Source of the DNA: an alpha proteobacterium SCGC AAA536-K22
Lineage (GTDB): Bacteria; Pseudomonadota; Alphaproteobacteria; Puniceispirillales; Marisalimonadaceae
Assembly: GCA_000421325.1 (NCBI GenBank)
Contig: ATWQ01000001.1
Span: 146,011 to 210,010, forward strand
DNA length: 64,000 nt
Reading direction: 5' to 3'
Shown: one piece after another, positions 37,903 to 44,613 of the stretch
Numbering within the stretch: position 1 is the stretch's first letter
Layout: every line of letters starts with the position of its first letter
The notes under the pieces: model-generated
Database searches by the model: none
What the model saw: only the letters and a program-made list of their open reading frames with translations
Told to the model about the DNA's origin: nothing
Translations under genes and position numbers: made by a program

Positions 37903-39549
37903 ATGTTTGATATAATTCTTCAAGCTGGAGCGTCTGTTTTACTTGATCCTTTAACGTTAGGATTAATGGGTATAGGAACATTAGCTGGTTTGTTAGCTGG
38001 AGCTATACCAGGCTTTACAATAGCTATGGGTGTTATCTTAACATTGCCTTTTACATTTGGTATGAGTCCTATTCAAGGCTTGGCAACAATGATGGGTGTA
38101 TTTGTCGGTGGTTTATCTGGTGGTTTAATGTCTGGAATGCTCACAGGTATTCCTGGAACTCCTTCTTCAGTGGCGACAACATTTGATGGTTTTCCTATGG
38201 TGCGTTCTGGAAAACCAGGATTAGCTTTGGGATTAGGTTTATGGTCTTCTTTCTTTGGAGGAATGATAAGCGCAGTTATTTTAGTAGCACTTGCACCACA
38301 GCTTGCTTTTCTTGGCTTAGAATTTGGCCCTTGGGATTACTTTGCTCTAATTGTTTTCGCTCTTACTATTACAGTTAGTTTATCTGGCGATAATATGGTT
38401 AAGGGATTAATTGCAGGTTGTTTAGGTTTATTTGCAGCTTGTGTTGGAGAAGATGAAATAAATGGAGTGGCTAGATTTGCATTTGGCTCGGATCATATTA
38501 GACAAGGTTTTGCTTTTCTTCCAGTATTGATTGGTTTATTTGCATTTTCCCAACTTTTAAGTGACGTAGAAGATAATGTAAAAGCTAAATCACCTTTAAT
38601 GGCGAAAACGGCTGACCCAGTTAGAGTAGAGCATAGAAAAGCAATTGCTTTAGTTGTTAAAAATTGGATTAATTTATTTAGATCAAGTTTTATTGGAATT
38701 TTTACTGGAATTCTTCCCGCCGCAGGTGGCTCTATTTCAAATATTCTTGCATATGATCAAGCAAAAAAAGCGGCCCCAAATAGAGATGAATTTGGAAAGG
38801 GAGCTGTAGATGGCATAATTGCTCCAGAGTCAGCTAACAATGCTACTGCAGGTGGAGCTCTCATAATGATGATGGCATTAGGCATCCCCGGTGACATTGT
38901 AACGGCGGTTATGCTTGGTGCTTTAATGATACATAATATAATTCCTGGACCTTCATTTATTCAAGATGAACCCCTTTTAGCTTATGGTGTTTTTATAGCA
39001 TTTTTTGCGGCACATTTCTTTATGGTAGGTTTGCAAGCATTTTCTCTAAGGTTGTTTCTTTTAGTAACAAGAATTCCTATGTATGTTTTGGCATCCGTAA
39101 TTCTTGCTTATTGTGCAATAGGAGTTTTTGCTCTTCATAATATAACTTTTGATATATGGGTAATGTTCGGTTTTGGTGTTATTGGATATTTTATGCGCAA
39201 ACTAGGTTTCCCACTAGCACCAATGATACTTGGTGTCGTATTAGGAAAATTAGCCGAACTAAATATAGCTAGAGCTATCGGTACTAGTGATGATTACTTT
39301 TTATTTGTAACTAGACCTTGGTCTTTGTTTTTTATACTGATGGCAATAGTTTCCATAATATTTCCTTTTTATCAAAATGCGAATAAGGATTCAATGTTTT
39401 CAAAGCTCTATGTCCCAATATGTATGATGGTTTTATCTTTTCCATTGTTTCTAATGGGAAGCCCAGTAAGAATGATAATTGCCGCTATATTATTATTAGC
39501 TGGAAGTTATTTTGTTTATAAAAGGACTACTACACTTCAAGTTACCTAA
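37903..39549 (+). CDS. tctA: tripartite tricarboxylate transporter large permease
   Basis: GLLAGAIPGFTIAMGVILTLPFTFGM, GIPGTPSSVATTFDG, GILPAAGGSISNILAYDQAKK. Confidence 0.96.
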   Translation: MFDIILQAGASVLLDPLTLGLMGIGTLAGLLAGAIPGFTIAMGVILTLPFTFGMSPIQGLATMMGVFVGGLSGGLMSGMLTGIPGTPSSVATTFDGFPMVRSGKPGLALGLGLWSSFFGGMISAVILVALAPQLAFLGLEFGPWDYFALIVFALTITVSLSGDNMVKGLIAGCLGLFAACVGEDEINGVARFAFGSDHIRQGFAFLPVLIGLFAFSQLLSDVEDNVKAKSPLMAKTADPVRVEHRKAIALVVKNWINLFRSSFIGIFTGILPAAGGSISNILAYDQAKKAAPNRDEFGKGAVDGIIAPESANNATAGGALIMMMALGIPGDIVTAVMLGALMIHNIIPGPSFIQDEPLLAYGVFIAFFAAHFFMVGLQAFSLRLFLLVTRIPMYVLASVILAYCAIGVFALHNITFDIWVMFGFGVIGYFMRKLGFPLAPMILGVVLGKLAELNIARAIGTSDDYFLFVTRPWSLFFILMAIVSIIFPFYQNANKDSMFSKLYVPICMMVLSFPLFLMGSPVRMIIAAILLLAGSYFVYKRTTTLQVT

Positions 39550-40075
39550 TAAATTGATCAACATAATTGCTACCGAGGCCAACTTTCTCAAAATGTTTTT
39601 TTGCGGCATCAATTCTATCAAAAACGTCAGTAGAACTTATGGTTTTTCCATTTTCATCGCAATAAAGTAAAGCTCCAGAATTGTGAAATAACGTAATCAT
39701 TTCTTCACAGTCTTCATCAACTACAAGAGTATGGATTTCTCCAGGTGGTTCAAATAAATAAGATCCTTCGGTAGCTACCCAATCGTGTTCAAGATATCGC
39801 CATGACCCTTTTATAACAAATCCGTGAACTGGGGCTGGATGTCTGTGTCTAGATAGGAATCCTCCTCCAATTACTTTTGTCAAATGAACCCAGTATCCCT
39901 GACTTATATTAAAGCATAGAGGTCTAGACCATCTACCTGGAGATAATGGGACCCATAATCTTTCATCTTCTTTAGAAAAGCTATCTTGGATGAATATGTC
40001 AGCTATAGCTACTTGAGGTTTTGGTCCACTATAAGGTAAGGGAATTTTAGGTTTTTTTATATCATCCATTAACAA
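39542..40075 (-). CDS. cupin-domain protein (acetylacetone-dioxygenase-like)
   Basis: GGGFLSRHRHPAPVHGFVIKGSWRYLEHDWVATEGSYLFEPPGEIHTL double-stranded beta helix motifs. Confidence 0.85.
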   Translation of the reverse strand: MLMDDIKKPKIPLPYSGPKPQVAIADIFIQDSFSKEDERLWVPLSPGRWSRPLCFNISQGYWVHLTKVIGGGFLSRHRHPAPVHGFVIKGSWRYLEHDWVATEGSYLFEPPGEIHTLVVDEDCEEMITLFHNSGALLYCDENGKTISSTDVFDRIDAAKKHFEKVGLGSNYVDQFIR

Positions 40076-40120
40076 TCTCCATAATGTGTATATTATAATA
40101 GATAATTCTCTAAAATAATC

Positions 40121-40158
40121 AAAAAGAAAAGGACGAAGGATGGGGGTCCTTCGTCCTT
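40121..40158 (-). terminator. Rho-independent terminator of the DUF1127-sRNA unit
   Basis: perfect 12-bp stem AAGGACGAAGGA/TCCTTCGTCCTT, loop CCCCCA, followed on minus strand by TTCTTTTTGA. Confidence 0.88.
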
Positions 40159-40262
40159 GTTTTATCAGATGACATAATAGCTACCTTGGGGGAGGAATTT
40201 GAGCTTTGTGTTATGCCACCATCTTTAATCAATATTCGAGGGAGGAGGTACGAATATTAATA
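40125..40262 (-). ncRNA. candidate CcsR/'cuckoo'-type sRNA downstream of a DUF1127 gene
   Basis: minus strand: AATATTCG-TACCTCCTCCCT-CGAATATT hairpin with CCUCCUCCC loop (40231-40258); second hairpin CAUAA/UUAUG + AGCU/AGCU with CCUCCCCC loop (40173-40215); then terminator. Confidence 0.75.
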
Positions 40263-40273
40263 CTTTAAAATCT

Positions 40274-40528
40274 TTATGCAGCTTTCTTGTCGTCAATCTT
40301 GTTATCTTGCTCGACTGCTTTATTTAAACCCAAATTACCTGCTGGGAAGTCAACAACATCTGTTATGTTAAAGAAGTCACCATTTAATACCTGCTGTCTT
40401 GTATATCCGATATCGGCTAATGTACGATCGTCTAAGCTAATTAAAGCTTGTCTAGTTCTTGAAACAGCAATCTTGTCAAATACTGTAGTAATAAAATTAT
40501 TTAGTTTGGCTAGAAATGTATTTTCCAT
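40274..40528 (-). CDS. DUF1127 domain protein
   Basis: 'SRTRQALISLDDRTLADIGYTRQQV' matches the DUF1127 pattern. Confidence 0.92.
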   Translation of the reverse strand: MENTFLAKLNNFITTVFDKIAVSRTRQALISLDDRTLADIGYTRQQVLNGDFFNITDVVDFPAGNLGLNKAVEQDNKIDDKKAA

Positions 40529-40724
40529 CGTCTTTTCACTTTTCTTTCTAATATTAAGAAGGCTTTATCCTTCGTTGATAATTATATACGCCAAATAAAA
40601 AAGAAAGAGAACCTAGGTAAATGGAAAATGATTATTTCCAAAATAGAAACATTAAACATATTTAGAACATTATTGACCTTAATTAGGAGTTAATATGGCA
40701 AGAGTAGGGCAATTTGACTTATAT

Positions 40725-42837: not shown

Positions 42838-43494
42838 CTAATCCTTATATATTTGATTTTTAAGTAAAAGAAAATTTTGTAAATAATTTTTGTTATTTAA
42901 TATATTCGAAATAACAGCTACTCCAGACACTCCTAAATCAAATAATTTACTAACTTTAGAAGTTGCAATGCCTCCTATAGCAACTACTGGAATGTTGGTT
43001 TTCAAAATTATATTTTTTAGACAATTCTCTCCTAATGGTTTAGATGCATCATTTTTAGAGTTTGTTTTGTATATAGGTCCAACACCAATATATTTAACAC
43101 AATCTGGAATATCATCTATTTGATTTTCATTAGTAATAGATAATCCTATTTCAATTTTATGATCAATAACACTTCTAGCTTTATCTGGGTGCATATCTGA
43201 TTGTCCAAGATGGAGAATATCAATTATCTCCCCAACTTTAGACGCAACATTTACATTATCGTTAATGCAAAGTTTTGTATTCGTACCATTCATAGCGTAA
43301 TTAAGATCCTTCAATAATGTAATAATATTATTTTCATCTAAATTTTTAGCTCTTAATTGAAAAACATTAAGTCCATTTACAGCAAGTTCTTTAACTATCC
43401 GAACTAAAGCCTGCTCTTTGTTTTCATTACCTAGTAGATGATCTGATAAAATATTTTCAGGTCCTGCAACAAAATAGGTGCTGTAATCAGACAT
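42838..43494 (-). CDS. thiE: thiamine phosphate synthase
   Basis: FQLRAKN, CINDNVNVA, HLGQSDM, GVGPIYKT, AIGGI; ATG at 43494 preferred over 43524. Confidence 0.94.
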   Translation of the reverse strand: MSDYSTYFVAGPENILSDHLLGNENKEQALVRIVKELAVNGLNVFQLRAKNLDENNIITLLKDLNYAMNGTNTKLCINDNVNVASKVGEIIDILHLGQSDMHPDKARSVIDHKIEIGLSITNENQIDDIPDCVKYIGVGPIYKTNSKNDASKPLGENCLKNIILKTNIPVVAIGGIATSKVSKLFDLGVSGVAVISNILNNKNYLQNFLLLKNQIYKD

Positions 43495-44305
43495 TTTTAA
43501 TGTTAGCGTTTTCTGAAACTTCACTTGCTGATAAATTGGCCAAATTATCTAACAAATGCATTCTCAAACTACCTGGTCCTTCTGCAACTTTAGCAGCCAT
43601 TTCACCTGCCAGTCCATAAATTGAAATAATAGAAGCAGTTGAAAGAAGTTTATTTTCTCCAACTGCAATAGCAGCTCCGATTAGACATGAAAGAGCACAT
43701 CCGGTAGCAGTTACTTTGGTCATCATTTCATGGCCACCTGATATAGCATATGTAGTTTTTCCATCTGTGACATAGTCAGTTTCACCAGTTACAGCAACTA
43801 TAATGTTATTTTTATTTGCAATAGCGTTTGCTGCATCTAAAGCTTCATTAGATGAGGATGTTGAATCTACTCCCTTACCGCCACCAGCTATACCAAAGAC
43901 AGCCATTATTTCAGAACCATTTCCTCTTAATACGGTAGGTTTAAATTTCATTAATTCCTCAACATTTTTATTTCTAAAACCACTAGCCCCTGCACCTACA
44001 GGATCTAAAACCCAAGGAACACTATTTTTATTTGCTAAACTTGCCGCCTCTAATGCACATTCTTGCCAATATGGATCAAACGTACCAATATTGATTGTCA
44101 ATGCACCATTAATTGCTTTACATATTTGGCTAAAATCATTTGCTTCCTCTTTTGCATGAGCCATTGCTGGAGAGGCTCCAATTGCCAAAAGAGCATTAGC
44201 TGCAATATCCATGGAAACAAAATTTGAAAAATTCCATATTAATGGAACTTTTTTTCTAATATTTTCAAGTAATTCTGCCGCTTTGATCGATGTCTTATTA
44301 TTCAT
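43487..44305 (-). CDS. thiM: hydroxyethylthiazole kinase
   Basis: NFVSMDIAANALLAIGASPAM, WVLDPVGAGAS, VTATGCALSCLIGA. Confidence 0.96.
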   Translation of the reverse strand: MNNKTSIKAAELLENIRKKVPLIWNFSNFVSMDIAANALLAIGASPAMAHAKEEANDFSQICKAINGALTINIGTFDPYWQECALEAASLANKNSVPWVLDPVGAGASGFRNKNVEELMKFKPTVLRGNGSEIMAVFGIAGGGKGVDSTSSSNEALDAANAIANKNNIIVAVTGETDYVTDGKTTYAISGGHEMMTKVTATGCALSCLIGAAIAVGENKLLSTASIISIYGLAGEMAAKVAEGPGSLRMHLLDNLANLSASEVSENANIKNV

Positions 44306-44432
44306 TATAATTCCTTTTGTTGAAAGATACTTTTATATTTTACTTAGTTTATAAAAAATTAAATACATCTTAATCATGCTTAAAATGTAATTTTAAGGTA
44401 TTTATTATGTAAATTCTGAGAATTCTTATAAT

Positions 44433-44510
44433 GCTTCTCCCTCCGCTGGTTTTAATCAGATCAGGTTATAAGGGTTTAATTCTCAGCAAGATAGTCTTGC
44501 TCCCCTGGCG
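44433..44510 (-). promoter_or_regulatory. TPP riboswitch (THI element) upstream of thiM-thiE
   Basis: minus strand: CGCCAGGGGAGC..GCTGAGAATTAAACCCTTATAACCTGATCTGATTAAAACCAGCGGAGGGAGAAGC, matching the THI-box consensus. Confidence 0.96.
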
Positions 44511-44613
44511 TTTACATACTAACATTAGTAATTAAATTTTGCTAATTTTTTATTGTTTTAGATAGCAGACGTTAAATAAAATAAATTAGTATTTTTTTTA
44601 AGTAGGTATCAAT

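Follow-up and report, generated by a model that had tools for sequence, protein, structure and literature searches.

A DUF1127-linked RNA of the CcsR/cuckoo kind, with predicted anti-Shine-Dalgarno loops, in SAR116 bacteria

Introduction

Does the DNA that immediately follows a short DUF1127 gene in a SAR116 bacterium encode an RNA that pairs with Shine-Dalgarno (SD) sites? The question is raised by a locus in the window (the whole stretch of 64,000 nucleotides analysed here), where an earlier note, made from the letters alone, had read two hairpins with C-rich loops as an RNA of the CcsR/'cuckoo' type. In Rhodobacter sphaeroides, CcsR1-4 derive from the ccaF1 3' UTR (PMC8625941), from which they are processed by RNase E with the aid of CcaF1 (PMC8625941, PMC10253847); CcaF1 binds RNA and influences how CcsR matures (PMC10253847). 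The R. sphaeroides locus is driven by RpoHI/RpoHII, and the association of DUF1127 with CcsR is frequent among alphaproteobacteria (PMC10253847). Anti-SD loops have also been proposed for SmelA075/A099 of Rhizobiales (PMC3927594), and members of the cuckoo family carry two to four hairpins in which the stem sequence is unconserved and the anti-SD loop motif conserved (PMC4504443, PMC3927594). Whether DUF1127 proteins act via RNA or via proteins is disputed (PMC12501420).

Results

The window belongs to a SAR116 genome of 2.0 Mb that is 80% complete (G000), and its GC content is 30.4%. The layout described in the earlier note was recovered: on the minus strand the DUF1127 stop codon is followed by hairpin 1, hairpin 2 and a terminator with a T-rich tract (Table 1), with the coordinates, RNAfold (three hairpins in the minus-strand 3' flank, the terminator included) and the PF06568 match (residues 24-47 of the ORF product) all in agreement. 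Hairpin 1 (40261-40228, 11 bp) has the loop TACCTCCTCCCT; the outer stem of hairpin 2 pairs GGUGGCAUAA with UUAUGUCAUC and its inner stem AGCU with AGCU, enclosing CCUCCCCC in a large loop. The 166-nt flank has an MFE of -40.6 kcal/mol versus -24.6 ± 3.8 kcal/mol for dinucleotide shuffles (z = -4.2), and none of 200 shuffles equalled it. Because there is no terminator between the DUF1127 stop codon and the hairpins, we infer that gene and hairpins are co-transcribed. The DUF1127 protein is 70-89% identical to its relatives in genus g1 and sister genus g3.

Table 1. Features of the DUF1127 locus in window coordinates
Feature	Position	Strand	Description
DUF1127 small protein gene, CcaF1-like	40274..40528	-	84 aa; PF06568 E=3.5e-7
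Hairpin 1	40228..40261	-	11-bp stem, loop UACCUCCUCCCU; CCUCCUCCC at 40240-40248
Hairpin 2	40168..40220	-	10-bp outer + 4-bp inner stem; CCUCCCCC at 40188-40195
Intrinsic terminator	40129..40158	-	12-bp stem, T-rich tail
Conserved promoter-like block TTTCTATTTTGGAAATAATCATTTTCCATTTACCTAGGTTCTCTT	40605..40649	-	Conserved in 21 upstream regions; palindrome TGGAA-N9-TTCCA at 40622-40640

Two further elements were considered and set aside: a third functional loop in the terminator, where the C-rich loop differs among relatives, some of which (L011, for instance) have no C run left, and a 5'-leader hairpin (GAAGG/CCTTC, 40558-40573) that is absent from some relatives. As for the surroundings, the downstream neighbour (39542-40075, minus strand) is in many relatives a ChrR-type cupin gene (PF12973), and its coding sequence in the window contains GGAGGAGG at 39861-39868, where L212 and L213 read GGTGGTGG instead. 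On the other side, a TPP riboswitch (RF00059, 61 bits; 44421-44516, minus strand) lies upstream of thiM-like (43487-44305) and thiE-like (42838-43524) genes.

We then aligned the 3' flanks of 25 DUF1127 copies, drawn from genus g1 and sister genus g3, and the check proposed in the earlier note, compensatory changes in both stems around fixed C-rich loop cores, came out positive. Six pairs changed on both sides with pairing kept, versus 2.8 ± 0.9 by column shuffle (2 of 500 shuffles were as high); four of them are among the 11 pairs of hairpin 1, and the outer and the inner stem of hairpin 2 each contribute one. The proposed structure pairs 95.4% of the cells in these 25 sequences, a proportion that falls to 29-55% once the partner is slid. 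Over the same set the hairpin 1 loop core UCCUCCC shows zero variation and the C-rich loop core of hairpin 2 is nearly invariant; the terminator is almost unchanged and hence uninformative on covariation. A CCUCC motif in a hairpin loop was present in 25/25 and 13/13 DUF1127 flanks of the same family, versus 0.8-2.8% of shuffled flanks.

The RNA is tied to DUF1127 across genomes, as the earlier reading implied. A covariance model built in the present analysis (R1) and run over 40 genomes of the genus gave 23 full-length matches in 20 of them, and each of the 23 DUF1127 copies in the genus (23/23) is adjoined by exactly one full-length RNA; within these 40 genomes the model revealed no full-length RNA without DUF1127 and no DUF1127 without the RNA. 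The remaining 20 genomes, some of them 99-100% complete, show neither. This apparent lack of DUF1127 and RNA is largely an assembly effect: wherever the cupin gene was found in these genomes (14/14), its contig stops at the locus or shortly ahead of it. Contigs ending at the locus are L211, L212 (G031) and L243-L254, and absence calls made there are unreliable.

The unit is present twice in several relatives. In G013 and G025 the two copies have about 590 bp in common (95% and 83% identity, respectively), a stretch that starts about 180 bp before the ATG and ends just past the terminator; G005 holds a shorter duplicate stretch of 94% identity, one contig beginning within the gene. The cupin gene follows one copy, and a membrane-transporter-like gene the other. 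In G031, two contigs open with an identical run of exactly 77 bases within hairpin 2, beyond which they lead to different neighbours, an overlap that resembles a k-mer break at a repeat. Two similar copies of the unit plausibly break short-read assemblies at this point; cutting or masking by the database is a conceivable alternative cause of the contig ends. The limits of the duplicated block match those of promoter, gene, RNA and terminator taken together, an indication that these form one functional unit. A single copy was found in G000, where the earlier note had suspected a minimal one-copy form; that idea did not hold, given the two hairpins at the window locus, the duplicated units in relatives and the single-hairpin forms that occur in sister genera.

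In those sister genera (g2 and g4) the single hairpin has an unrelated stem (CUAGAU/AUCUAG in g2) and retains the loop CCUCCUCC. In family f4, CCUCCC or CCUCCUCCC together with a terminator directly follows most short DUF1127 genes, the motif lying about 10 bases or less from the stop codon in genus g17. Under strict MFE criteria the motif falls in a hairpin loop at 8/22 loci of f4 and 2/10 of f2, and at 0/9 loci of the long DUF1127 types, which serve as negative controls. DUF1127 genes of four other alphaproteobacterial genomes formed a further control set. There, behind the 71-aa CcaF1-like genes of three Rhodobacterales, our positive control, lie hairpins with a dozen CCUCC motifs, many of them with CCUCCUCCC, and the Rfam CcsR1 model (RF02791) matches two of these control loci (L259 and L260); a second Rhodobacterales paralogue has two or three CCUCC motifs. 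Other DUF1127 types in these genomes have few or none, and the Rhodobacter-type genes serve as further negative controls. In some Rhodospirillales-type genomes (L266, L078 and L080), CCUCC-rich runs stand right at the DUF1127 stop codon and may be degenerate or minimal versions of this RNA.

Set beside the known families, the window locus has the hallmarks of CcsR/cuckoo (CIN1) RNAs, namely a CCUCCUCCC loop, a hairpin number within the range of two to four with unconserved stems, and a same-strand position directly after a short DUF1127 gene. As at ccaF1/CcsR1-4, and in the same layout as in the Rhodobacterales controls, hairpins with CCUCCUCCC in the loop, and then a terminator, come straight after the DUF1127 gene; as in cuckoo, SmelA075 and SmelA099, there are two hairpins whose stems covary or are replaced while the loop motif is kept. 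On the other hand, and unlike R. sphaeroides CcsR1-4, the SAR116 RNA has two hairpins with AT-rich stems and a second loop that reads CCUCCCCC, and its DUF1127 protein differs from CcaF1 in the C-terminal tail. It also departs from cuckoo in that exact CCUCCUCCC occupies one of the two window loops (hairpin 1), and the single hairpins of g2/g4 and f4 fall below the cuckoo range. The covariance-model search suggested in the earlier note, run with the Rfam CcsR1 model, left the window locus unmatched: the scan gave no RF02791 match at the gathering threshold or at E<=10, and the best weak matches were unrelated.

The locus differs from that of R. sphaeroides also in its promoter region, in which no RpoH site was found. 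With CTTGAA/CYATNT as the pattern, in place of the exact RpoHII matrix of R. sphaeroides, the best RpoH-type sites upstream of DUF1127 scored 8-10 of 11 versus 7-10 in shuffles. For comparison, groES in this genus carries CTTGAAA-N17-CTATTT and scores 10-11. The best-conserved upstream stretch is instead a 45-base block 77-121 bases 5' of the ATG, the palindrome of which reads TAGAA-N9-TTCTA in sister genus g2, its arms altered symmetrically. As a regulon marker, TGGAA-N9-TTCCA was discarded, with 6 sites in the genome versus 5 for the reversed control and no sign of a regulon.

GGAG occurs in 10/55 upstream regions, in 0/55 regions inside genes and in 3 regions after shuffling, an upstream enrichment which indicates that this genome uses SD sites. 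The longer GGAGGAGG, which reads identically backwards and for which the reversed-pattern control is uninformative, has 29 sites in the genome, just one of them placed convincingly for an RBS, implying that strong targets are few or that pairing is shorter. This site lies 5 nt before a Pyr_redox_2 flavoprotein gene (L225:1501-1508; relatives L277-L298) and reads GGAGGAGG in 17/22 SAR116 relatives and GGGAGG in 4 more. Judged by leader and domain, the flavoprotein may be a relative of flavocytochrome c sulfide dehydrogenase. Its mRNA is only a candidate target of the anti-SD loops, because a strong SD may persist for its own sake.

Discussion

The reading of the locus as a CcsR/cuckoo-type RNA largely holds, supported by covariation, loop invariance, the linkage to DUF1127 and the Rhodobacterales controls. 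The RNA is real and conserved, and it belongs to a known kind. In SAR116 it is new to the extent that the literature found shows: our search, which did not cover the original cuckoo survey, returned no paper on an anti-SD RNA in this group. We put at roughly 0.78 the probability that the window holds the DUF1127/CcsR ('CIN1', 'cuckoo') locus in its SAR116 form, acting in trans at SD sites. Anatomy, covariation, invariant loops, one-to-one linkage and extension across SAR116 are direct observations, and transcription, processing, trans action and a role in stress would follow the Rhodobacter precedent. A single transcript would begin near the conserved block at 40605-40649, encode the DUF1127 protein, cross the two hairpins and end at the terminator (40129), and its 3' part would be processed to a small RNA. 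By analogy with CcsR1-4 and SmelA075/A099, trans pairing with SD sites is the most likely action of this RNA: its exposed CCUCCUCCC and CCUCCCCC loops would engage the G-rich SD sites of particular mRNAs, which would then be translated less, and the DUF1127 protein would probably aid RNA processing or binding, as CcaF1 does.

Hairpins that act only in cis, to protect or end the DUF1127 mRNA with C-rich loops devoid of trans targets, would fit both the strength of the terminator and the stability of the stems directly 3' of the stop codon, as well as the small number of perfect RBS targets. Protection of an mRNA, however, requires stems and not a loop sequence, and here the loop core is invariant while the stems vary and are wholly different between genera, so that we hold a purely cis role to be unlikely. 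Similarly improbable, in our view, is that the C-rich loops are mainly sites for a protein (DUF1127 or another RNA-binding factor), the RNA then serving as a sponge or in feedback and not as a partner of SD sites. The strict one-to-one relation of RNA and DUF1127 and the binding of RNA by CcaF1, with its effect on CcsR maturation (PMC10253847), speak for such sites, but the loop is exactly anti-SD and is kept alongside quite different DUF1127 sequences; protein binding and SD pairing by the loops can, moreover, coexist. That 40119-40232 encodes a 37-aa peptide instead of an RNA is scarcely credible: the stretch can be read as an open frame from a TTG start codon, yet relatives have gaps of 1, 2 and 3 bases in loops and spacers, and the substitutions preserve base pairs.

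Beyond SD pairing by a CcsR/cuckoo-type RNA, we entertain as a speculative and rather doubtful extension that the SAR116 DUF1127/anti-SD RNA might be a self-contained two-copy cassette, its copies similar within a genome, that has been rewired from RpoH to a regulator binding TGGAA-N9-TTCCA and tuned to few extended-SD targets, such as the flavocytochrome-c-sulfide-dehydrogenase-like flavoprotein with its conserved GGAGGAGG.

For genome surveys, the 'absence' of DUF1127 from SAR116 single-cell genomes is to be distrusted. The number of C-rich hairpins ranges from none to two inside one order, and the SAR116 series offers a natural experiment on the number of loops required. The DUF1127-linked anti-SD RNA family, known from Rhodobacter and rhizobia, extends to a marine lineage, and a predicted anti-Shine-Dalgarno 3'-UTR RNA is placed in SAR116, which is widespread in the sea and has small genomes.
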